Below are positions 34,754-52,116 of a DNA stretch of 64,000 nucleotides, piece after piece. The translations under genes and the position numbers were made by a program. Position 1 is the first letter of the stretch; each line of letters opens with the position of its first letter. The stretch comes from Solitalea lacus (GTDB taxonomy: Bacteria > Bacteroidota > Bacteroidia > Sphingobacteriales > Sphingobacteriaceae), in the NCBI RefSeq assembly GCF_022014595.1, contig NZ_CP091740.1, forward strand, positions 2,592,200 through 2,656,199. The letters run 5' to 3'. A model generated the notes under the pieces. That model saw only the letters and a list, made by a program, of their open reading frames with translations. It was not told where the DNA came from and did not search any database.

Positions 34754-35248
34754 TTATTTTTTCTTTTCAGTAAAATCAACCCCTGGATTTGCCGACTTAA
34801 TCTGTTGTTGAATTACTTTGGCCCAGTTCACAATCGCATCCTTTTGCTGCTGAGTAAGCACAGCATCCTTATGTAGAAAGGTGTAGGAGTCAATAGGCAT
34901 CCAACCCTCTTGTTGTGATTCAATTACTTCCTTTAATTTATGATTTGCCTTTTTGGGAGAGTAGGCCCCAAATTCTGAAAAATTAAGCTCATCCTTTCCC
35001 TCGTCCACATGATGTTGCAACCACCATGCAACCGGCTGAATATTGGCATACCATGGATAAACAGTGTTGTTGCTATGACAATCCATGCATGCCGTTTTAA
35101 GTGCTTCTTGAACGTCAACCGGAACTGAATAATGCTTACTTATATCATTGGCAGATATACCATCGGATTGATTTTTAGCAGGTCGAATAAACTGAATAAT
35201 GACAATAACGGCCAAAAAACCGTATAAAATCTTTTTTCTAAGACTCAT
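34754..35248 (-). CDS. Membrane-anchored haem-binding domain protein
   Basis: A 164-residue protein with one N-terminal membrane helix (LYGFLAVIVIIQFIRP). A periplasmic domain carries one c-type haem motif, CMDCH. Segments YPWYANIQPVAWWLQHHVDEGK and NFSEF match the 'haem_bd' domain common in Bacteroidota. It likely holds one covalently bound haem and moves electrons or senses redox state. The gene is single. Confidence 0.85.
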   Translation of the reverse strand: MSLRKKILYGFLAVIVIIQFIRPAKNQSDGISANDISKHYSVPVDVQEALKTACMDCHSNNTVYPWYANIQPVAWWLQHHVDEGKDELNFSEFGAYSPKKANHKLKEVIESQQEGWMPIDSYTFLHKDAVLTQQQKDAIVNWAKVIQQQIKSANPGVDFTEKKK

Positions 35249-37220: not shown

Positions 37221-37616
37221 TTATTTTTTGAAGGTTCGCATATAATTAACGATTGACCATAAATCCTCTGGATCAGTAATTTTCTTTTTGAAGGAAGGCA
37301 TTTCATCACGACCTGCTGTAATTTTGTAAAATAATTCCCCATCAGATTGTTTTTGAACACCTGCTGAAGTTATATCTTCCATAGTCGTTTTTAATGATGC
37401 CGCCTTGGTTCCATCGCCTGCTCCGGTTTTACCATGACAAGATGCACAATGCTTAGTCCACATTTCTTTGCCAGTCTTAAGTGATGCGGCATCAGCTTTC
37501 ACCGGATTGGCCATCTTTGCATTCTTTTCAGGCACGACCCAAGGTTTGGTTTGATAATACGTAAATGAAAGAAGAACGCTACCAACCATTATTACTCCAA
37601 TCAAATTTGCTTTCAT
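37221..37616 (-). CDS. Small class I cytochrome c
   Basis: A 131-residue exported haem protein, read from the ATG at 37614-37616, which gives a clean signal peptide (MKANLIGVIMVGSVLLSF). An ATG 27 nt upstream is less likely. One haem motif CASCHG (about residue 66) and a late Met ligand in RDEMPSFKKK are present. The end DPEDLWSIVNYMRTF is typical of cytochrome c. It is the last gene of the eight-gene electron-transfer operon. Confidence 0.88.
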   Translation of the reverse strand: MKANLIGVIMVGSVLLSFTYYQTKPWVVPEKNAKMANPVKADAASLKTGKEMWTKHCASCHGKTGAGDGTKAASLKTTMEDITSAGVQKQSDGELFYKITAGRDEMPSFKKKITDPEDLWSIVNYMRTFKK

Positions 37617-37650
37617 AATATTTAGATTTTTTAAGAGTTTCAATTTTCAA

Positions 37651-38544
37651 CTAAACAGTATCCTTTGCTTTTCCAAGCTTAATAAGTCGCGTAATCTGAT
37701 AGATAAGATAAAAGATAATTCCCCAAACACATATAATAATGAGATTAGGAAAAATAAGCAACCAAAGGGGCGTTTTATCGCGTGTGGCCCACAATGATCT
37801 TTTTGCAAAACTATTATCCTGAACAAACGGTGTACCCCATTTTACAGTTTTTACCGCTATTAATGTTCCATACAACTCATTATCATCAATTTTCGCTCCA
37901 ACAATAATATTGCCTTTAGAATCACCTGGTATACTGAGGTTAAAATCGGCTGATACTTCTCCTCCAATGGAGTCTGTAGTGTAGGACTCTTCTTCTGTAG
38001 CCGTCAAGTCGCTTAGTAATCTTCTTACTACCAATTTAACTTCGGTTTCAGGCACCGGCACCCATTTACCATCAGGTTGGATGGCTAAAACTTTTGCATG
38101 TATCGAACGAACACTATCCACCTCATCGAGGGTCAGTTCAATTTTTGCTTTTGTTATTTCCAATTCAGAGGATTGAGTCTCAAAACGCTTGTCCTGAGTA
38201 ACCGTACCAATAAATTTAAAATTGGCCGCTGTATCCCATTGGGCTTTAAATCGCATAGGCAAAGCTAAATACCCGTCTCCAAGGAGGTTGGTTTTTACTC
38301 TTCCCATAAACCCTGCTGAGGTTTCTGTATTAAAAAAGAGATTAATATAAACTCCTTCTAAAGGTACAAACTTCTCTTTTTTAATTTTTGCTGATGCCTT
38401 AATAACAGGTAGATCATTGTTCACTTGGGAATAGGCAAGATAAATCTGAATGGTACTTTTAGCTTTACCTTGGGCATGCGTCATAAAGGTTATCAAGCAT
38501 AATGCCACTGCAATCAGTCCGGTTAAATGGTTGAGTTGCTTCAT
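37651..38544 (-). CDS. Exported, membrane-anchored protein of the NrfD operon
   Basis: A 297-residue protein with signal peptide (ends MTHAQ), about 220 residues of beta-rich periplasmic domain, then one C-terminal membrane helix (LLIFPNLIIICVWGIIFYLIY) and a basic tail. I do not recognise a family. The first part looks like immunoglobulin-like repeats (VPLEGVYINLFFNTETSAGF; WVPVPETEVKLVVRRLL). It overlaps nrfD by four bases (38541-38544), so its product probably belongs to the same membrane complex. Confidence 0.65.
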   Translation of the reverse strand: MKQLNHLTGLIAVALCLITFMTHAQGKAKSTIQIYLAYSQVNNDLPVIKASAKIKKEKFVPLEGVYINLFFNTETSAGFMGRVKTNLLGDGYLALPMRFKAQWDTAANFKFIGTVTQDKRFETQSSELEITKAKIELTLDEVDSVRSIHAKVLAIQPDGKWVPVPETEVKLVVRRLLSDLTATEEESYTTDSIGGEVSADFNLSIPGDSKGNIIVGAKIDDNELYGTLIAVKTVKWGTPFVQDNSFAKRSLWATRDKTPLWLLIFPNLIIICVWGIIFYLIYQITRLIKLGKAKDTV

Positions 38545-39842
38545 GTTTTTTCAGGTTTACTATGTTCCATTTCTTCAATCGTTTCATGAATAGGAATAAT
38601 GGGGAACAAGCGTGTAAAAATGGTAATAATGAGCAATGTTCCGGCCAGTGAACCAATGGTGATAGACCACTCTTCCCATGTGGGGATATAATGGTGGTAA
38701 GATTCCGGAACATCATACATTGGAAGAAATGGGCTCAGCATGGTTGGTGTAACAATTAAAAATCGCTTAAACCATGCGCCAATCACTACTAAAATACCCA
38801 TCAAAAATGCTGGAAATGGTTTTCTTCCTTTTGGAAATAACAGCACCACAACCGGAACTATCATACCTAATATAATGGCAGACCAAAACAAACCAGAGAA
38901 ATGTCCTGTAAACAAGCTGTGCAGATGATGCTCCTCTGCCTTTTTCATTTTGAAGGCTGGAACCAGGTATTCATTGATATTGAAATACAAATACAAAAGA
39001 GCCAGCATCACCACGACTTTACTCATGTTGTTAAAATGTTTGTCAGTGATGTAGGCCTCCAGTTTATAGGCTCTTCTAAACACATACATGGCCACCACTA
39101 CGCCACCTGCACCCACTAAAAATGCACCAGAGACGAAATATGCACCAAAGTTGGTACTGTCCCATCCAGGGCGAAAGGTGGTGGCAAACAACCATGAAGT
39201 AACGGTGTGAATGGCCAGAGCAACAGGAATGATCATGACCGAAATTATTTTAACGGCATTTTCGCTTATTTTAAATTGTGCAGCTGTACCCTTCCAAAAA
39301 GACCCAATGAATTTGTAAAATTTTTGAACTCTGCTTCCTGGTTTGCTATTCTTAATTAAGATGGGAATATCCGGCAGCAGCGGAAAATATAGAAACAATA
39401 TACTAATGGTAAGATAGGTGGTGATCACAATAACATCCCACATGATAGGTGACTGCAATCGACCATATAGAAAGAGATGGGTGAATCTTTCCGGGCGCCC
39501 CATATCCACAATAATGATGATGGATGCAAATAAGATCGCCGACACGGCAATGATTTCTGAAATGCGTGTTAAAGGAGTACGCCATTCAACACCCGTAAGC
39601 CGAAAAATAGCGGTAATAAGGGAACCCACTAAACTTATGGCCACAAAAAAAACAAAATTGGAAATGTAAATTCCCCAGGATGCATAATCGCGCATGCCGG
39701 TAATGCCTAAACCCAAGGTGACTTGCTTATAGTAACAATATAATCCATTTAAACAAAGCAGTATCAGGAAGGCCGTCCAGATCCTACCAGTTTTTCCAAA
39801 CTTTTGGGGTAGTAAATCCGAAGTTATTTTAGTTGAGCTCAT
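38541..39842 (-). CDS. nrfD: NrfD/polysulfide-reductase-type quinol-linked membrane subunit
   Basis: A 433-residue membrane protein with about ten helices, of the NrfD/HybB/ActC type. These exchange electrons between menaquinol and a periplasmic Fe-S subunit. Segments such as GITGMRDYASWGIYISNFVF, DMGRPERF and HLFLYGRLQSPIMWDVIVI match the family, and the DMGRPERF motif is characteristic. It overlaps the Fe-S protein gene (ATGA, 39839-39842) and the next gene. The menaquinone made by the mqn genes at 11.6-15.2 kb is the likely partner. Confidence 0.9.
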   Translation of the reverse strand: MSSTKITSDLLPQKFGKTGRIWTAFLILLCLNGLYCYYKQVTLGLGITGMRDYASWGIYISNFVFFVAISLVGSLITAIFRLTGVEWRTPLTRISEIIAVSAILFASIIIIVDMGRPERFTHLFLYGRLQSPIMWDVIVITTYLTISILFLYFPLLPDIPILIKNSKPGSRVQKFYKFIGSFWKGTAAQFKISENAVKIISVMIIPVALAIHTVTSWLFATTFRPGWDSTNFGAYFVSGAFLVGAGGVVVAMYVFRRAYKLEAYITDKHFNNMSKVVVMLALLYLYFNINEYLVPAFKMKKAEEHHLHSLFTGHFSGLFWSAIILGMIVPVVVLLFPKGRKPFPAFLMGILVVIGAWFKRFLIVTPTMLSPFLPMYDVPESYHHYIPTWEEWSITIGSLAGTLLIITIFTRLFPIIPIHETIEEMEHSKPEKT

Positions 39843-40765
39843 GAGTTTTGTTCATTTTTAAATGGGAACAATCGATCAACCGGCGGCAAATAATAGACGC
39901 TTGGTTTTGTACCCAGTTCTTCCATTAATCGATAGCCTGAACGATCTCGAATTAACTCACTGAATCGAACTGTCTCCGATCCATTGGTTACAGTGTCTTC
40001 ATATATATCGCCAAAGAAAAAAACACCGTTGGGGCAAGCTGTAACACAATGCGGTAATTCTCCTTTTCTGGCCATATCCGGACAGAAATCACATTTAGAT
40101 ACGGTACCAATTTTAGGAGGACAACTGGTTTCTATAGAGTATGGCAAATCTTTGACTGCTTGAGGAATTATGGGTTTATCCCAATTGAATACACGGACAG
40201 AGTATGGACAAGCTGCCATGCAAAAACGACAGCCAATACACCGATCCGCATCAATGCCTACTATTCCATCCTGACGTTTAAATGTGGCATCCACTGGACA
40301 AACTTTTACACACGGCGGATCATCACAATGCATACAGGTGGTGGGTTGCCAAAAAGGTGCAGTGGTTTCAGCATCCTGCATTGGGTACACTTTGATCCAG
40401 TTTTGAAAGTCACTCACAAAGTGAGCATGGTTACAGGCCTCCTGACATTTTTTAAGATTGCGGCACCTTGATAAGTCGATTACCATCACAAATTTCTTAC
40501 CCTCAATTCCCATTCTTTCTGCCATATTGGAAATGGATGGTATTTCCTCGGTGGGCTTTAAGTAAGCTTTGTCAACTTCGATAATTTCCCCTGTGGTAGA
40601 AAGAAGCTTTACCATTTCACCAGAAGGCTGTACGTTTTCCTTCTTAGCTTCATTGGTAAAAGGATCATGAGGGGTACATCCTGCTAAACCTGCCAGCAGC
40701 GCACCCTTAATAAAATCTCTCCGCTGAATCGGGCTTAATGGAACTATTTTGGATAAATCGACCAT
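39839..40765 (-). CDS. Tat-exported lipoprotein Fe-S subunit with four 4Fe-4S clusters (NrfC/HybA type)
   Basis: A 308-residue electron carrier. The N-terminus has a Tat signal (QRRDFIKGALLAG) ending in a lipobox (LAGC). Four cluster motifs follow: CRNLKKCQEAC, CMHCDDPPCVKVCP, CIGCRFCMAACP and CDFCPDMARKGELPHCVTACP. It should sit on the outer face of the inner membrane and pass electrons to or from NrfD. The usual molybdopterin or nitrite-reductase partner is not encoded next to it. Confidence 0.93.
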   Translation of the reverse strand: MVDLSKIVPLSPIQRRDFIKGALLAGLAGCTPHDPFTNEAKKENVQPSGEMVKLLSTTGEIIEVDKAYLKPTEEIPSISNMAERMGIEGKKFVMVIDLSRCRNLKKCQEACNHAHFVSDFQNWIKVYPMQDAETTAPFWQPTTCMHCDDPPCVKVCPVDATFKRQDGIVGIDADRCIGCRFCMAACPYSVRVFNWDKPIIPQAVKDLPYSIETSCPPKIGTVSKCDFCPDMARKGELPHCVTACPNGVFFFGDIYEDTVTNGSETVRFSELIRDRSGYRLMEELGTKPSVYYLPPVDRLFPFKNEQNS

Positions 40766-40777
40766 AAGTATCGTTGT

Positions 40778-41002
40778 TTATTTTTTAACCCAATTTTGCA
40801 CATCTTCCTTTGTTGCAACTTTGCCGGTAGTGGGTAACTTATCTATGTCAATTTCGACTAACTTGCCATCCTGCGTTAAAAACTTTGCGGTTGTAGTTTT
40901 CTCTTTTTTGGGTGGATTATCCCATTTAAAAAAGGCTATAACAGCTGCGAGACTTAAGCCCGAGAACAAGAATTTTTTTCTGCTTAGATTACTCATATGC
41001 AT
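40778..41002 (-). CDS. Small exported protein
   Basis: A 74-residue protein with an N-terminal LSRKKFLFSGLSLAAVIAFF export helix (KK, not RR, so perhaps Tat-like only in outline). A short polar domain (KFLTQDGKLVEIDIDKLPTT) follows. The ATG at 41002 is used; one two codons later would serve as well. It sits 12 bp before the Fe-S gene. Its domain resembles the KLLSTTGEIIEVDKAYL segment of the Fe-S protein, suggesting a related strand pair. Function unknown. Confidence 0.65.
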   Translation of the reverse strand: MHMSNLSRKKFLFSGLSLAAVIAFFKWDNPPKKEKTTTAKFLTQDGKLVEIDIDKLPTTGKVATKEDVQNWVKK

Positions 41003-41010
41003 TCATTATT

Positions 41011-41937
41011 TTAAAAGCTCCACAGCCTGGTAATGTTGAACCCGATATACAAATCCTGATACCATTTGTGTTGTGAGTTAGGTTGATTGAACACATTATT
41101 GTATTGTGGTACAATTAAAGGAAAGTTCGAAATGAAAATTTGGAACTGGTGTGCACTCGTAGCCACCTCTATACCTGTACTTAAATTAAACTGGGGATTG
41201 TTATCGGTATGTTCTGTAAGGGGTTGATCATAGTTTACGAGTATGGACGTTTGTGGTGAAATTTTGTATCTACCTGCCACGGCAACAGCAAAATGATCAT
41301 TTTGCATGTTCGGATCAATCACATTGAAGTGCGAAAGACTTGGAGCCACCATAGCAGAAAACTTATCATTAAATTTCCGGGAAATAATAATCTGATGAAA
41401 GAATGAAAGCCTGTCAGACGAATTACCATTAGGCAGTTCATCTGTTTTATCCTCAGTTGAAATACCCATATCAAAATAATACGCCATACTTATAGGTATT
41501 TTCCCATTCCGGGTTTGACTAAGAAAACCATATTTCAGGTTAATGTCTTGCACCATACCAGTTTTGGTAGATCCAAGTCCAACGGCAACACTGCCTTTGA
41601 ATTTACCAAAACCAATATTATCACACAGTGAGTAATTAAGGCCAAGCCGGATATTGGCGCCTGCTCCGTACATACCGTAGAGATCACTGACGCCATTGTA
41701 AATTGTTCCAAACCGGTGGTTAATCATGAACTCCAATGTCCCTTTTTGAGGGACAAATGTGGTCTGATTATCTATAATCCAAGTGCTTTCAAAAGTAGAA
41801 CGAACTGGTTTATTTCCACTATCCTCTACTTTAACTGAATCATCCTGAGCGAATGATGGTAGTGTTATGAGCATAAAAGCAGTTGTGAATAGCACTCGGA
41901 AGGCCTTGCTATATATAGTAGAATTTAAATTTTTCAT
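41011..41937 (-). CDS. DUF5777-type outer-membrane barrel protein
   Basis: A 308-residue exported beta-rich protein with signal peptide ending SFAQ. Stretches such as LEFMINHRFGTIYNGVSDLYG, GANIRLGLNYSL, PISMAYYFDMGI and FQIFISNFPLIVPQYN fit the DUF5777 family of Bacteroidota. This group appears near electron-transfer and YceI genes. It could form a pore. It lies between a haem lipoprotein gene and a small exported-protein gene. Confidence 0.8.
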   Translation of the reverse strand: MKNLNSTIYSKAFRVLFTTAFMLITLPSFAQDDSVKVEDSGNKPVRSTFESTWIIDNQTTFVPQKGTLEFMINHRFGTIYNGVSDLYGMYGAGANIRLGLNYSLCDNIGFGKFKGSVAVGLGSTKTGMVQDINLKYGFLSQTRNGKIPISMAYYFDMGISTEDKTDELPNGNSSDRLSFFHQIIISRKFNDKFSAMVAPSLSHFNVIDPNMQNDHFAVAVAGRYKISPQTSILVNYDQPLTEHTDNNPQFNLSTGIEVATSAHQFQIFISNFPLIVPQYNNVFNQPNSQHKWYQDLYIGFNITRLWSF

Positions 41938-41957
41938 ATCGATTTATTTAAAAACTT

Positions 41958-42341
41958 TTAATTGTTTTTAGCTCCTTCTGTTATCCATGCCAGAATAATT
42001 TTTTTATCATTATCACTTAACGGCGCACGTCCAGCAGGCATTCCTCCGCCATTGATGGATAGATACAGTACGCTATTTGCAGGATCTGTGGTATTTACAT
42101 AACCGCCGGAAATTAAATCATTGTAAGCCTTTTCCCGGACTAAACTTGGTGCATGAGTTGGTTTATTATCATGACAACCGGACATGTTGCAGTCGCGATC
42201 AAAAATTGGCTGAACATCGTTTTTCAGACTAACGTTTGTAGGAAGCCCTTCAAACGAGGCCACCGTGTCATAATAACATGCATGAAGACCGCCAGAAGCA
42301 CAGAAAAGTGCTACTATCACATAGATAAATTTCTTTTTCAT
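41958..42341 (-). CDS. Haem-binding lipoprotein of the electron-transfer operon
   Basis: A 127-residue lipoprotein with lipobox GLHAC (Cys22). It carries an atypical c-type haem motif, CNMSGCH, where three residues separate the cysteines. PTHAPSLVREKAYNDLISGG and MPAGRAPLSDNDKKIILAWI follow, with a Met ligand candidate. Planctomycete-type cytochrome c proteins in Bacteroidota show the same CxxxxCH variant. It is second in the operon, 11 bp after the YceI gene. Confidence 0.82.
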   Translation of the reverse strand: MKKKFIYVIVALFCASGGLHACYYDTVASFEGLPTNVSLKNDVQPIFDRDCNMSGCHDNKPTHAPSLVREKAYNDLISGGYVNTTDPANSVLYLSINGGGMPAGRAPLSDNDKKIILAWITEGAKNN

Positions 42342-42352
42342 AAGTCTGATAT

Positions 42353-43054
42353 TTACTTTTTATTTCTCATCAGGCTATTGATTTTGATCCTAACAACATC
42401 GCCTATATTAGTATCATTGGGTAGAAAATCAGCCTTTTTTATATCAAATGTTGAATTAAAACCGGCCGCATATGCAGTACCGATATCATATTTTGGGGCA
42501 AAAAACATTTTAACTGTAACAGTTTTTGTTATACCCAAAAACGTAAAGTCAGCGTCTATCAAAAATCCGTTATCTGTGCTACTATATCTGCCAGTGCCTG
42601 GTTTCGATTTAAGGGTTGCCTTATTTTGAGCCTCTTCAGTCAGTCCGTTAGCTGTTCCAAAAGATGTCAGCAAACAACCATCATCTCTATTTGGTTCGCT
42701 TGTGTTCACAGAATTTAACCACACATAGCCTTCAAATGAAATGTTAACAGGATTTGCCTCATCGAAGTTAAAACTGGCCATAAAGAATGAGTCAAACCTG
42801 CCTGTAAGTAGGGATCCTAATGTTTTATACTGCGTTTCCCATTCCACATTGGAGTGCGATTTATCATGGTACCAGACATTAGATGCCGTAGGTACAGTAT
42901 TGCAACTAGTACAGGCTATCATCTCTGTACCACGAACAGGTTGATCAGGTCCATTTACAGGAATCGTTTCTGAGTCATCATGTTGACAGTGTACGGCAAA
43001 AAAGCCCGCAGTTAAAACCAGCAATGCGATTAATGTAATTTTAATTTTTTTCAT
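42353..43054 (-). CDS. YceI-family exported protein
   Basis: A 233-residue exported protein with a lipobox-like AVHC near residue 23. The body follows the YceI lipocalin-like fold: VWYHDKSHSNVEWETQYKTL, RFDSFFMASFNFDEANPVN and GFLIDADFTFLGITKTVTVK. YceI proteins bind isoprenoid chains such as quinones. Extra cysteines (CTSCN, CLL) are unusual. First gene of an eight-gene operon whose other members suggest quinone-linked electron transfer. Confidence 0.85.
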   Translation of the reverse strand: MKKIKITLIALLVLTAGFFAVHCQHDDSETIPVNGPDQPVRGTEMIACTSCNTVPTASNVWYHDKSHSNVEWETQYKTLGSLLTGRFDSFFMASFNFDEANPVNISFEGYVWLNSVNTSEPNRDDGCLLTSFGTANGLTEEAQNKATLKSKPGTGRYSSTDNGFLIDADFTFLGITKTVTVKMFFAPKYDIGTAYAAGFNSTFDIKKADFLPNDTNIGDVVRIKINSLMRNKK

Positions 43055-48043: not shown

Positions 48044-48713
48044 TTGTTAAAATAACGACGGTTGCCCATCGGCTTGCCATTGACAATAATAATGCTGAAA
48101 ACCCCAATAGCCTTTCTTTTTCCAGTAGCTGATATTCAGCGTTCTAAGTAAAATGGGGCTGTGTGCAACTCTGGCTGCACCTTTACTTGTGTTGCCCCAC
48201 TGATAGGCCAATGATTTTCCTACTTCGAGTTTTATTAGGTTGGAGACTTTGGTTCGTATCCGTTTCCATCTCCTCCAGGTGTTGATTCGCAATCGGGTTC
48301 TTAACCATTCATCAAGTTTCTCCATTTTACTTCTCGCATTGGCGATTTTAAAGTAGTTTACCCAGCCTCTGATGATTTCATCGAGCTTTTTAAGCTTGTT
48401 TGCTTCTGGGCTGGGGTTACTTGATTGGGTTATCCTTTTACATTTTTCTTTCACCCTTTGGAAGGGCTGTTCTCCTATTCTAATCTGCCAGCCTTTCTTT
48501 GTTTTATAAAAGCTGAAGCCAAGCAGGTAGCTGTTGGAGGGTCGGCTGATTTTCGTCTTTACCCTGTTTACCTTTAGTAGTAGCTCCTTTTCTATGTATT
48601 CTATGATTCCGGCAGCTACTCTTTGGGCTGCTTTCTTACTTTGTACATAGATACTGCAATCATCGGCATAACGCACAAATTTATGTCCCCGCTTTACCAA
48701 CTCCTTGTCCAGC

Positions 48714-50366
48714 TCATTTAAAATGATGTTGGAAAGCAATGGGCTTCTCACTCTTCGTACACAATTGGTAACTTTTTTCATTATTTTCATTTTCAGCCTC
48801 TTTTAATGGAATTGAATGTTTAATATCTATCAAATCATCCCCTACAATTATTTCCTTCACAAGCAGTCTGAGTATCTTCTTTTTCTCCTTTATATCCAAT
48901 TGGTGCAGGTTTTGATCAATTTGGTTGGTAAAGCTCGCAACGTCCAGCAACTGCAATCGTTGATCTAAAGCCAGCTCATGCGCTTTCAACTGTTCCAGGT
49001 CTTTCTCTATAGTGTTAACCCTTTTCTGAAGCTCTGGCATCCTTTTTCTTAACTGAGCGATTGGGATTAGGCCTTCCTGGTAAGCATCCAGTAATTTATC
49101 CATTGCTTGAACTGCCTTTCCCCGTTGCTTTTCAAACGATGCTTTTTGATGAAGTAACGGACTTGTATTTTTAGTTTCCGCTACCCGTTTCTCTACTTCT
49201 CGTTGAATTAGGGTGGGGTCTTGTAATAAGGCTACGATCTGTTCCCATACAATCCTGTCCAGATAATCCTGTCTGATCGGCTTACACGTACACTTTCTGC
49301 CACCTTCGAACCGATAATCATCTGAGCCAAAGCAACGATAATAATAGATCTTGTTTTTTGCCGAAGTTGTAGTTGCGGTCCTATACAACGCATAACCACA
49401 TTCGCTACAAACCATCATTCCCTGAACCAGAGATAAGACAACTGTGTTTCTTTGCGCATGAAGTTTATTGCTTTTTAATCGTTCCTGTGCAATATCAAAG
49501 GTCGCCTGTGACACAATAGCGGGAACGGATAACTCAATCCATTCTTCTCTGGGCTTTTCTTTAGTGCATTTATTTTTTGAACTGTAACCACCTTTTGCTC
49601 TCAATGGCTTTATGACTTTTTGCCTTGGGCTAGCTTCTGTTTTACCAAAACAAGCTTTGCCACAATAGGCCGGGTTTCTTAGTATGCCCCAAACGGTTGA
49701 GCGTTCCCATATGGTTGCCCCTTTCTTAGTAGGAACCTGCTTGGCAGTTAAGGCTCTTGCCACTGCACCTATGCTACAAAAGTCATCGGTGTATAAACGA
49801 TATATCTCCCTTACTACAGAAGCTTCCTGCTCATTAATTTCGTAGTAGGCAGCTGCTGCATCTGTTTTTTTTATGTATTTATACCCATAAGGGGCACCAG
49901 ACATGACACTTACATTCCCTGATTTAGCTTTAAACCGTTTCCCTCTCCTGGAGCGTTCCTTGATCATTGCCCGTTCGTATTCTGCAATCATCCCCTGAAA
50001 CTGTAGCAACAAGGCCTCTTCCGGCGTTTCGGCTTTGGGCGAATTAACAAACATCACTTCTATACCACAGGAATGAAATTCGTCGATTAAAACCACCTGA
50101 TACGCATAATTCCGGCTCAAACGATCGGGACTATAGACCAAAACAGCTTGTATTTGTCCTTCGGCACTTAGATCTCTCACTTTTTCCAATCCAGGACGAA
50201 CCAAAATCGCTCCACTGTAACCCTCATCTTTAAAGATATATTCTTCTGGGACCACATAACCGTTTTCTTTGGCAAATTCTAATAAAGCATCTACCTGGCT
50301 GTCGATGGTTTTATTCTCCTTCTGCTGATCGGAGGATACTCGCGTATAAATGGCTGCAGTTTTCAT
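48714..50366 (-). CDS. Large serine recombinase
   Basis: A 550-residue site-specific recombinase. Resolvase domain: TAAIYTRVSSDQQ with catalytic serine (about residue 10), VLVYSPDRLSRN. Recombinase domain: NPAYCGKACFGK. A zinc ribbon with CSECGYALYR and a later CTC follows, then a coiled-coil region. The last ~10 residues (KPIAFQHHFK and the stop at 48714-48716) lie in intron sequence beyond the element end, so the stop is supplied by the target. The ATG lies inside the upstream small gene (overlap 56 bp), suggesting coupled translation. Confidence 0.92.
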   Translation of the reverse strand: MKTAAIYTRVSSDQQKENKTIDSQVDALLEFAKENGYVVPEEYIFKDEGYSGAILVRPGLEKVRDLSAEGQIQAVLVYSPDRLSRNYAYQVVLIDEFHSCGIEVMFVNSPKAETPEEALLLQFQGMIAEYERAMIKERSRRGKRFKAKSGNVSVMSGAPYGYKYIKKTDAAAAYYEINEQEASVVREIYRLYTDDFCSIGAVARALTAKQVPTKKGATIWERSTVWGILRNPAYCGKACFGKTEASPRQKVIKPLRAKGGYSSKNKCTKEKPREEWIELSVPAIVSQATFDIAQERLKSNKLHAQRNTVVLSLVQGMMVCSECGYALYRTATTTSAKNKIYYYRCFGSDDYRFEGGRKCTCKPIRQDYLDRIVWEQIVALLQDPTLIQREVEKRVAETKNTSPLLHQKASFEKQRGKAVQAMDKLLDAYQEGLIPIAQLRKRMPELQKRVNTIEKDLEQLKAHELALDQRLQLLDVASFTNQIDQNLHQLDIKEKKKILRLLVKEIIVGDDLIDIKHSIPLKEAENENNEKSYQLCTKSEKPIAFQHHFK

Positions 50367-50520
50367 ATACCTGATCTTCTATGGGTTGATTAATAGAATT
50401 TGCTGAGGAAATGATTTCCGACTGGCCTGGGACGAGAAGATGGTAGACCTGTGTGAGTTTTTGCTCCCACAAGCGGTCATAGGAGAACGATATCTTAGCG
50501 ATCCTCTCCTTTTTGGCCAT
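50311..50520 (-). CDS. Small protein upstream of the serine recombinase
   Basis: A 69-residue protein (MAKKERIAKISFSYDRLWEQ) starting 22 bp before the RHH gene stop and overlapping the recombinase start by 56 bp. The gene order RHH, small protein, recombinase with overlaps suggests one transcript with coupled translation. I do not recognise the family. It may be an accessory factor for recombination. Confidence 0.55.
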   Translation of the reverse strand: MAKKERIAKISFSYDRLWEQKLTQVYHLLVPGQSEIISSANSINQPIEDQVYENCSHLYASILRSAEGE

Positions 50521-50842
50521 AGTGTTGTTTTTTTGCTAAAAACTCTTCCAATGCCGCCCTGACTATTTTGCTGATTGAAGTCCCCTGAGAGACTGCAAAT
50601 TCCCTTACCCGACCGATCAGACTGGGCGGAAGTTTTACTGTAAAGACCACTGAACGCTCCGGAATGGTTAACTTCTCCTTGTGCGCTTTGGCTTGCTGAA
50701 CATAACGATAGGCCTGTATTTGGGACACACCATAGGTTTCCATCAACTGCTCTACAATATTTGTATACGGCTTCCGCTGCTCCAATAAGGCATGCGCCTG
50801 ATTGATTCTTTCCGCCAATTCCGAATTCGGTGATCTTTTCAT
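50495..50842 (-). CDS. HTH plus ribbon-helix-helix regulator
   Basis: A 115-residue protein. Its first half has a helix-turn-helix (NIVEQLMETYGVSQIQAYRYV), the second half a ribbon-helix-helix (RSVVFTVKLPPSLIGRVREF, SISKIVRAALEEFLAKK). It is the first gene of the element and probably represses the recombinase operon or steers the recombinase. The promoter would be in 50843-50948 next to the element end. Confidence 0.75.
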   Translation of the reverse strand: MKRSPNSELAERINQAHALLEQRKPYTNIVEQLMETYGVSQIQAYRYVQQAKAHKEKLTIPERSVVFTVKLPPSLIGRVREFAVSQGTSISKIVRAALEEFLAKKQHYGQKGEDR

Positions 50843-52116
50843 TTATCATAAAAATAATACTTTTTATGAAATATCCAAAACTAAAATCTTCCTCTTTTAA
50901 TCACAAGTCGCTTAACAAAGTCAATGTTTGTGAGTGTGTACGTAAAGCTAACGGGCTACCTTGAGGGGTACCTTCGCTGCGAGGGCTTAGCACTCCGCCT
51001 TCCATTATGCCGCTTTTCAGGTAAAGGCTGACTAGTTTTAGGGTCCGTTTGTCCGCAATCTTCTTACTTAGTAAACCCAGTAGTTGCTGGTGGTTTACCT
51101 TGTCGAAGAATTTCTCCAAATCCAGCTCTATTATCCATTCCCGGCCTGTGTTAAGGTACTTTTGGGCAGTCATTACTGCCTTATGGGCATTCTTACCAGG
51201 CCTGAAACCAAAGCTGTTTTCGTTAAATTCCTGTTCGTATTGCGGAATTAGCCATTGGGAGACCGCTTGTTGCAGCATCCTGTCCACTACACAAGGAATT
51301 CCTAGCATCCTTTTGCCGCCCTGTGGTTTGCGTATTTCTACTTTCCGCACGGGTTGTGGCTCATAAGTGCCTTGGAGTATACTTTTCAGTAGGGCTTGAT
51401 AGTGGGCATTTACATAGGGGCGAAGTTCATCGCTCTGCAGATGGTCAATACCCGCTGCCCCTTGGTTGCGTTCTACGGCAACAAGGGCTCTTTCAAGGTT
51501 TCTTCTGTCGAATATTCTCTCTAGCATTACTTTAACCGATAGCGCATTCGGGCAATTCCGTCAGTTTCTTTCATTTTCTGCTAAGCTCCTTCTGCAGTCT
51601 ACTTTCGGTTTCCGACCTTTCCTCATGCAGACAGTTCTCTTACGTGTTTCGGCTTTTTTTTTTTTCGCTTCAAATGATTTAGCTGTTTCCTTGCCAATTT
51701 TAACATTCAGCCCTTTTCCCAACATTACTTGGAATACTATGGCTTCTGCTGACTTCTGATAACACCAGTGCTTGCATCCCTGCAAGCTGTTTCCGCTTTA
51801 GGTTGCGCTTCTCCCGCTGCCAGATTGTTATCAGATCTCTCAGGGTAAGTCTAATCGCTTTCCTCTCATGTAGCCTCTGCATATACATTCATGGCATCTG
51901 TGTAGTGTGGGACTTTGATTTCTTTAGCAATCTTATCCTGCCATGACTGCCTCTTATACAGTTTCTGTTCGTAGGCTCGAGAGTTTGCCTTGGGCTTCCT
52001 TCAGATTCCTTCTCGCGAAGGACACCCTTGCCGTCGGCTAACACTTCCCACTACAAAGCGTGTTCGGGACTTGCACCCTAGAGCTATTAAACATGCCTGA
52101 CGCACTAAAAAATCTG

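Follow-up and report, generated by a model that had tools for sequence, protein, structure and literature searches.

Gene Content and Organization of the Operon

The stretch of DNA analyzed here (referred to as the window; 64,000 nt, positions 2,592,200 to 2,656,199 of contig NZ_CP091740.1) comes from the genome of Solitalea lacus, a single contig of 4.40 Mb, and carries at 37221-43054 an operon of eight genes, all on the minus strand. In the order of transcription these encode a YceI-domain lipoprotein, a small cytochrome-like lipoprotein (tentatively referred to as cytX4), a DUF5777 barrel, a protein of 72 amino acids (aa), an iron-sulfur (Fe-S) protein exported by the twin-arginine translocation (Tat) system, an NrfD-type membrane subunit, a membrane-anchored protein (memD), and a small cytochrome c (cytC). 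An earlier interpretation made from the letters alone (the sequence-only reading) had described, at the same coordinates, a Tat-exported Fe-S protein and NrfD with two heme proteins, YceI, DUF5777, and two other proteins, and no molybdopterin gene; open reading frames (ORFs) and Pfam searches bear out both this gene set and the absence of a molybdopterin gene inside the operon. We suggest, as an evenly balanced judgment, that the operon encodes a menaquinol:cytochrome c module feeding a separable outer-envelope module with an exchangeable end piece. The genes are as follows.

42353..43054, minus strand: YceI-domain lipoprotein (Pfam YceI, 3.2e-14), with QHDDSE after the lipobox Cys, resembling a surface export signal
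41958..42341, minus strand: cytX4, small cytochrome-like lipoprotein with a CX4CH heme motif
41011..41937, minus strand: DUF5777 outer-membrane barrel (Pfam, 3.3e-77), 12 predicted strands
40778..40996, minus strand: 72-aa protein that lacks a cofactor motif, has a Tat-like sequence (SRKKFL) at its N-terminus, and resembles the N-terminal part of the Fe-S protein
39839..40765, minus strand: Tat-exported Fe-S protein, 308 aa, with 15 invariant Cys in four motifs and matches to several Fe-S Pfam families
38541..39842, minus strand: NrfD-type quinone-binding membrane subunit (Pfam NrfD, 1.7e-30)
37651..38544, minus strand: memD, membrane-anchored, with a signal peptide, two immunoglobulin (Ig)-like domains, and a C-terminal transmembrane helix
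37221..37643, minus strand: cytC, small class-I-type cytochrome c (Pfam Cytochrome_CBB3, 6.9e-13) with CxxCH and a conserved Met

The genes are closely packed, with 4-bp overlaps at NrfD/Fe-S (39839-39842) and memD/NrfD (38541-38544) and gaps of 7-20 bp elsewhere; the 7-bp gap before cytC assumes the listed TTG start, and the first ATG of cytC gives 34 bp. The DUF5777 and NrfD proteins reach 259.5 bits with PF19089 (gathering score 23.1) and 107.2 bits with PF03916 (gathering score 25.8), respectively. The match of cytX4 to Cytochrome_CBB3 falls short of the cut-off (E 0.001; 19.8 vs. 27 bits), as does the single Pfam match of the 72-aa protein, and memD has no match in Pfam or NCBIfam.

Conservation and Distribution in Bacteroidota

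A single species-level genome scan with peptides of the window NrfD, which for this reason favors close relatives, returned 66 loci, all in Bacteroidota records (loci and genomes are cited below by L and G numbers); the closest named relative of this NrfD is in Solitalea agri, with 91% identity. Linkage was counted in the 39 loci with full flanks, calling YceI and the other genes by tblastn at E 0.01. cytX4, DUF5777, the Fe-S protein, NrfD, memD, and cytC are present in all 39, the 72-aa protein in 37, and YceI in 20. cytX4 and the barrel lie on the NrfD strand in 34/39, and in 32/39 no more than 4.5 kb separates the barrel from NrfD. Adjacency is stricter still in the inner part of the operon: the Fe-S gene is directly upstream of NrfD in 60/60 testable loci, memD is directly downstream in 63/63, and the 72-aa gene directly precedes the Fe-S gene in 53/60. 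Two or three Fe-S-NrfD-memD sets are present in some genomes (L059, L060, L061, L063, L066, and L067). As the loci are related, these counts are not independent events.

In a phylum sample of 296 Bacteroidota genomes, members of the Fe-S family (at least 454 bits, vs. 189 for the next match) are found in seven genomes representing seven genera and five families, and memD is found in exactly the same seven. DUF5777 is much more widespread (110/296), and it lies about 1.5 kb or less from the Fe-S gene in all seven carriers. The sequence-only reading had proposed conservation of the genes together as a check; the full-flank loci and the shared carrier genomes agree that they travel together. The gene set is real, specific, and uncommon, and a chance grouping is ruled out.

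Quinone Site and Inner-Module Proteins

The best solved-structure match of NrfD is ActC of alternative complex III (ACIII), at 3.6e-49. We compared 72 module NrfD proteins by column with Rhodothermus marinus ActC and with the residues given in Table 2 of PMC8076601, and found an ActC-type quinone site in part. S131 and D136 are present in 72/72, while the column of ActC His139 holds Asp (D113) in 68/72 and Cys in 4/72; R93, E96, E291, and R360, which correspond to ion-path residues, are kept in 72/72, and the position of ActC Asp253 is Leu in the window NrfD. A linkage of the operon to quinol is thus supported by conserved quinone-site residues. In a tree of NrfD sequences, which had long branches, the module sequences were not resolved as a single clade relative to ActC and the NrfD of L098; this tree was not used.

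The Fe-S protein has an invariant Tat RR and 15 invariant Cys in 38/38 aligned sequences. Its motif I, C-x5-C-x3-C, has three Cys and is one short, whereas four Cys are present in this motif of ActB and of the solved PsrB- and ArrB-type chains (ActB is one short in motif III). Three Cys in motif I were considered as a unique mark of the family, and this was rejected since the motif is without its second Cys in the Fe-S proteins of L092 and L093 as well; as these two lie beside Mo-bisPGD (molybdenum-bis pyranopterin guanine dinucleotide) genes, as described below, the three-Cys motif is no mark of a missing enzyme either.

In an hhalign comparison (probability 98.2, E 4e-14), the 72-aa family matches the N-terminal section of the Fe-S family, partly over the Tat-like region and otherwise along a short stretch centered on L-T-Q-D-G-K-L-V-E-[IV]-D. 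The Tat-like pair of the 72-aa family is RR in 22, RK in 19, and KK in 2 of 46 sequences (3 unassigned), and the protein may be a cofactor-free helper or spacer subunit. The AlphaFold2 model of memD (pLDDT 92.6) shows two Ig-like domains and a C-terminal helix; a fold search with it found nothing beyond generic Ig-like folds at low TM-scores and pointed to no function. A probable role of memD is to hold the Fe-S protein and cytC at the membrane.

In cytC, the C, C, H, M, and P positions are invariant in 68/68 sequences. His/Met heme ligation gives a high potential, above that of menaquinone, so that electron transfer from menaquinol to the cytochrome would run downhill and is the favored direction. 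The earlier suggestion that menaquinol electrons are sent to a heme protein keeps its quinol linkage, with the direction of flow resting on the ligands of cytC. The same ligands (Met in 68/68) bear on the reverse possibility, in which an external or periplasmic donor would be oxidized at the outer module and menaquinone reduced through the Fe-S protein and NrfD: such inward flow would be uphill unless driven. It does have parallels in the Asp that replaces the ActC His and in the Asp-to-Ser spacing of 18, which equals that of the QrcD and DsrP1 residues listed in PMC8076601, and QrcABCD is itself an NrfD complex working in this direction (PMC8076601, Table 1). We regard inward flow as quite unlikely.

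Search for a Catalytic Subunit

Another possibility is that the operon belongs to a complex iron-sulfur molybdoenzyme (CISM) that has its catalytic subunit gene in another part of the genome. The closest relatives of its NrfD and Fe-S proteins that we examined outside the module do adjoin Mo-bisPGD genes. With the module family model, the NrfD of L098 reaches 437 bits; it adjoins a protein having both PF00384 and PF01568, and the Fe-S proteins of L092 and L093 (190 and 183 bits with the family model) lie beside a Mo-bisPGD gene, identified by Pfam in L092 and by similarity in L093. The latter two gene clusters, both in Bacteroidota (L092:5587-11709 and L093:5021-11112), encode a Mo-bisPGD protein, two tetraheme frames, NrfD, and the Fe-S protein. 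Given these neighbors, loss of a catalytic subunit would be the simplest history of the module.

In the S. lacus genome, PF00384 matches a single protein, which its neighbors mark as NuoG of complex I, and PF01568 has zero matches. We further searched for PF01568 in 35 carrier genomes (28 from the 66 loci and seven from the 296-genome sample), and found it present in 22 and absent from 13, the zeros being weaker evidence because the 35 include metagenome assemblies whose completeness is unknown. Four of the seven sample carriers lack it, namely S. lacus and three of the other six. In G033, G099, and G103, the PF01568 genes lie on separate contigs or over 0.7 Mb away from the module. Similarly, NrfA (PF02335) was found in none of the seven carriers, with a positive Escherichia coli control. 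A molybdenum partner encoded elsewhere is thus not required, and a catalytic subunit elsewhere in the S. lacus genome, a partner that the sequence-only reading had named as evidence against itself, was rejected on the PF00384, PF01568, and PF02335 searches. Degenerate Mo-like domains can escape Pfam, as an ActB-like frame of the same genome (in L072) went unmatched; even so, a CISM with a distant catalytic subunit is highly improbable.

The lack of a molybdoenzyme is not unusual in itself, as NrfABCD, MccACD, NhcABCD, and DsrJOP are NrfD systems without Mo that use multiheme cytochromes (PMC8076601, Table 1). What is unusual is an operon with neither a Mo nor a multiheme catalytic subunit.

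The Outer Module and Its Variable Slot

The genes upstream of the 72-aa gene appear to form a second unit. In the cytX4 family, a C-Xn-CH motif is present in 60/60 sequences and takes the form CX4CH in 56/60; the Cys, Cys, and His columns are invariant in 60/60, and Met is at the ligand column in 37/60. The barrel following it was modeled by AlphaFold2 with 12 strands (pLDDT 84.5). Its best solved match is the COG4313 channel 4rl8 (Z 17.4, root-mean-square deviation 3.5, 214 aligned residues), and FapF and KdgM are also among the channels that it matches best.

The gene position before cytX4-DUF5777 is variable. Among 68 barrel copies of loci with NrfD, the slot holds YceI only in 25, EB_dh only in 23, both in five, EB_dh with a hexaheme gene in two, a hexaheme gene in one, and c21 in six (opposite-strand copies), while three have no holder and three are at a contig end. 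EB_dh was identified by Pfam in L005, L008, and the module genes of G099, G103, and G126, and elsewhere by similarity. CxxCH or CX3CH is present in 27/28 EB_dh members (CX3CH in most), and c21 members contain two CX4CH motifs each. Non-standard heme motifs thus prevail in the EB_dh and cytX4 families (loci L003-L068). Seven loci (L014, L025, L037, L047, L052, L058, and L065) pair one NrfD set with both a YceI set and an EB_dh set nearby, which suggests two outlets for one inner module.

All four EB_dh genes in the seven carrier genomes precede a DUF5777 gene, and in the window's class as a whole five sample genomes have EB_dh, each gene lying about 0.6 kb before DUF5777. EB_dh as a universal partner of DUF5777 was rejected, as in 14 genomes outside this class it is never beside a listed DUF5777. 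The EB_dh-cytX4-DUF5777 arrangement was confirmed in L090 and L091. Sets without NrfD also occur with YceI: of 12 DUF5777 contexts examined, at least 9 have a YceI-like protein and no NrfD, with YceI identified by Pfam in L070 only. The latter is in S. lacus itself (L070:6412-8347), where a second DUF5777 barrel and a YceI-domain protein lie without NrfD and beside a cytX4-like small lipoprotein that has no CxxCH or CX4CH motif. In a barrel tree, the NrfD-linked barrels apart from the c21 type cluster on a branch of 56 rows (support 100/99). The same tree had suggested that YceI replaced EB_dh twice; this was dropped as a firm claim, because five loci hold both genes and differential loss fits equally.

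YceI proteins bind isoprenoids and quinones, and the operon may accordingly be read as serving envelope synthesis or repair, for example by reducing or protecting a YceI-bound isoprenoid or quinone-like ligand, with no respiratory branch involved. The pairing of DUF5777 with YceI-like proteins in NrfD-free contexts also fits this idea. It sits poorly with the several ion-path residues of energy-coupling members that NrfD keeps and with the heme-motif proteins that hold the YceI slot in other genomes, and we consider it rather improbable.

The location of the end piece can be approached through its lipoprotein signal, as surface export in Bacteroidota is directed by C-X-K-(D/E)2 or acidic variants (PMC5080379). 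The window YceI, with CQHDDSE, fits this signal loosely, having H for K. At least two D/E at +2 to +6 are found in 14/22 YceI, 4/24 EB_dh, 9/72 cytX4, and 16/232 other lipobox-like ORFs, and a looser acidic pattern in 21, 17, 34, and 28 of them, respectively; the background, taken from the same loci, includes false lipoboxes and related sequences, and p-values were not used. A surface location is weakly favored for YceI.

A Proposed Electron Path

Based on these features, menaquinol would be oxidized at a periplasmic-side site of NrfD, and its electrons would pass to the exported Fe-S protein, which may be held in place together with memD and the 72-aa Tat-like protein. From there they would be transferred to the His/Met cytC, then to the cytX4 lipoprotein, and finally to an exchangeable terminal lipoprotein beside DUF5777, namely YceI in S. 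lacus and a heme-motif EB_dh or a multiheme protein elsewhere. An end acceptor would be reached via the outer module, in place of a substrate-specific catalytic subunit of the known NrfD-linked type. For passage beyond the barrel, the boldest version is a diffusible carrier with YceI as its binder, and the most cautious is a purely periplasmic end point. The direction of flow, the carrier order, the outer-membrane or surface placement of the end piece, and the kind of acceptor are inferred, and the proteins may or may not assemble into one complex.

Several observations weigh against this proposal. At the inner module, Arg occupies the column of ActC Arg114 in only 26/72 NrfD proteins and Lys that of Glu394 in 71/72, and the ActB-like frame missed by Pfam in S. 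lacus means that Mo-like domains may have been overlooked. The link between the modules is not uniform: cytX4 and the barrel are on the opposite strand in 5/39 full-flank loci (L030, L040, L043, L044, and L051), six c21-type barrels fall outside the NrfD-linked branch, and the outer module also occurs without NrfD, in the L091 genome, and is therefore separable. None of 30 YceI members has a heme motif, so that an electron-carrying role of YceI is by analogy with the other slot holders only, and the adjoining of YceI and EB_dh in five loci means that the two may have distinct jobs. The strict export signature is common in YceI and not in EB_dh or cytX4. By the usual yardsticks, the barrel modeled with 12 strands would be too narrow for a heme chain, making an Mtr-like route through DUF5777 unlikely, and a NorB-like gene near the modules of L075 and L091 may be the true acceptor there.

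The earlier proposal that electrons leave "out through the barrel" is consequently not well supported. A wire-free route across the outer membrane may be envisaged instead, with a monoheme cytochrome at the outer membrane taking up the menaquinol electrons, the 12-strand DUF5777 channel passing a small diffusible redox carrier, and an exchangeable lipoprotein presenting electrons outside, where YceI would serve a quinone-like ligand and EB_dh or multiheme proteins direct transfer; we consider this route unlikely.

Comparison With Known Systems

ACIII is among the known systems closest to the inner module. Among solved chains, its NrfD is most ActC-like, its Fe-S protein matches the C-terminal part of ActB, and both systems have a monoheme cytochrome and a quinol:cytochrome role. 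However, the operon has one NrfD where ACIII has two (the second being ActF), and no multiheme gene, compared with the pentaheme ActA. Its Fe-S protein has 308 aa and is not a large ActB with a Mo-like domain; a 1047-aa ActB-like frame of S. lacus is instead in L072. There, judged by gene order and similarity, lies a separate ACIII-type operon followed by oxidase-like genes, and for this reason the module is not the sole quinol:cytochrome route of its genome. The window operon also differs from ACIII in being linked to an outer-membrane module.

The likeness to ACIII raises the possibility that the inner proteins are simply a small ACIII-like menaquinol:cytochrome c oxidoreductase serving a terminal oxidase or nitric oxide (NO) reductase, with the outer genes unrelated to it and used, for example, in substrate entry. 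The ordinary His/Met kind of cytC and the closeness of NrfD to ActC among solved chains fit this view, and so does a NorCB-like pair found downstream of the module (L075) or of the outer module without NrfD (L091). The pair (L075:15161-16907 and L091:8316-10107) consists of a NorC-like cytochrome and a 469-aa NorB-like heme-copper protein (Pfam COX1), whose best solved match is an NO reductase (E 3e-13). In its alignment with 3o0r, H-L-W-V-E-G-x-W-E reads N-G-A-M-V-G-S-W-N, and the first FeB His and the Glu residues, by the roles that we presume for these positions, appear to be missing. In S. lacus, the L075 NorB-like protein matches at 23% a 719-aa frame, which from its length may be cbb3-like. 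On the other hand, this genome already has the ACIII-type operon and oxidase-like genes of L072, and the outer-module genes accompany the inner ones in all full-flank loci. An NO reductase as the general partner was rejected: the NorB-like gene is in 1 of 89 loci (L075), the seven carriers yield only that gene and weak matches of 23-25% in five genomes, and the further copy is that of L091. Taken together, an ACIII-like oxidoreductase with unrelated outer genes is possible, albeit somewhat unlikely.

The inner module also resembles DsrJOP, in which a Tat-exported Fe-S protein and NrfD are combined with a c-type cytochrome without Mo, and its best NCBIfam models are DsrO and DsrP. Both scores are below the cut-offs (180.1 vs. 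200 bits and 134.7 vs. 350 bits, respectively), and no trihaem DsrJ, DsrM, or DsrK is among the window neighbors. In addition, motif I of the module family has three Cys, compared with four in the DsrO-like proteins of L094 and L096, which were identified by gene order. CISM of the PsrABC type and the relatives L092, L093, and L098 share the homologous Fe-S and NrfD pair, but these relatives encode the Mo-bisPGD subunit (in L093 by similarity) that was found neither in the operon nor in its genome. Absence of NrfA from the carrier genomes separates the module from NrfABCD, and QrcABCD differs in that QrcC and QrcD reach only 121.9 of 400 and 70.7 of 570 bits and in that the operon has no hexaheme gene.

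Parallels to the outer module include the porin-cytochrome conduits (MtrABC and OmbB-OmaB-OmcB), which likewise combine a barrel gene with neighboring genes for a lipoprotein cytochrome and a putative lipoprotein of the surface. The monoheme cytX4 and the predicted 12-strand barrel differ from the multiheme cytochromes in large porins of those systems. Such conduits have been described as porins with multiheme cytochromes (PMC6344600). The NrfD-free YceI-DUF5777 sets such as L070 share with the operon a DUF5777 gene beside YceI and a small cytX4-like protein; they differ in that the NrfD-linked barrels, the c21 type excepted, group on a branch of their own and in that the window YceI has a lipobox.

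Other Features in the Vicinity

A Haem_bd domain protein (Pfam, 1.4e-47) is encoded at 34754-35248 of the window on the same strand as the operon, with plus-strand genes between them. Further away, reverse-transcriptase-like frames at 50901-51527 and 48047-48790 flank a serine-recombinase-like frame (48714-50366), and judging from the ORF list the region 48047-51527 resembles a group II intron type gene into which an element has been inserted. In another carrier locus (L076:1-4400), the frame list shows repeated-peptide frames upstream of the module, preceded by CRISPR-repeat-like and cas-like frames.

Implications

Our searches of the open-licence literature, preprints and supplements aside, found no description of this gene set, which is no proof of absence, and likewise did not find the name DUF5777. 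None of the 15 NrfD-like subunits listed in PMC8076601 belongs to a system with the composition of the module, and the passage of PMC6295460 that counts homologs of CymA, CbcL/MtoC/MtrH, and ImcH makes no mention of NrfD. In addition, unspecified "novel" porin-cytochrome genes are noted in Bacteroidetes of a humic bog (PMC6344600), which may or may not overlap with the module. The sequence-only reading had raised the possibility of an undescribed complex. The grouping is conserved and our searches found no account of it; a single complex of the eight proteins is a conjecture, and the outer part, which also occurs without NrfD, is better described as a separable module. We therefore file the module as a variant of NrfD-type quinol modules with a composition not found described.

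The operon adds to the Bacteroidota a conserved respiratory-type gene set, spread over seven genera of five families in the phylum sample. It also gives a context for DUF5777, and for YceI, as one operon slot is common to YceI and heme-motif proteins. If the proposed path is true, the NrfD-Fe-S pair can serve as a general quinol outlet, and not only as part of one enzyme, just as CymA is a general quinol outlet in Shewanella. The module would then be a candidate route by which respiratory electrons of Bacteroidota may reach the outer envelope.

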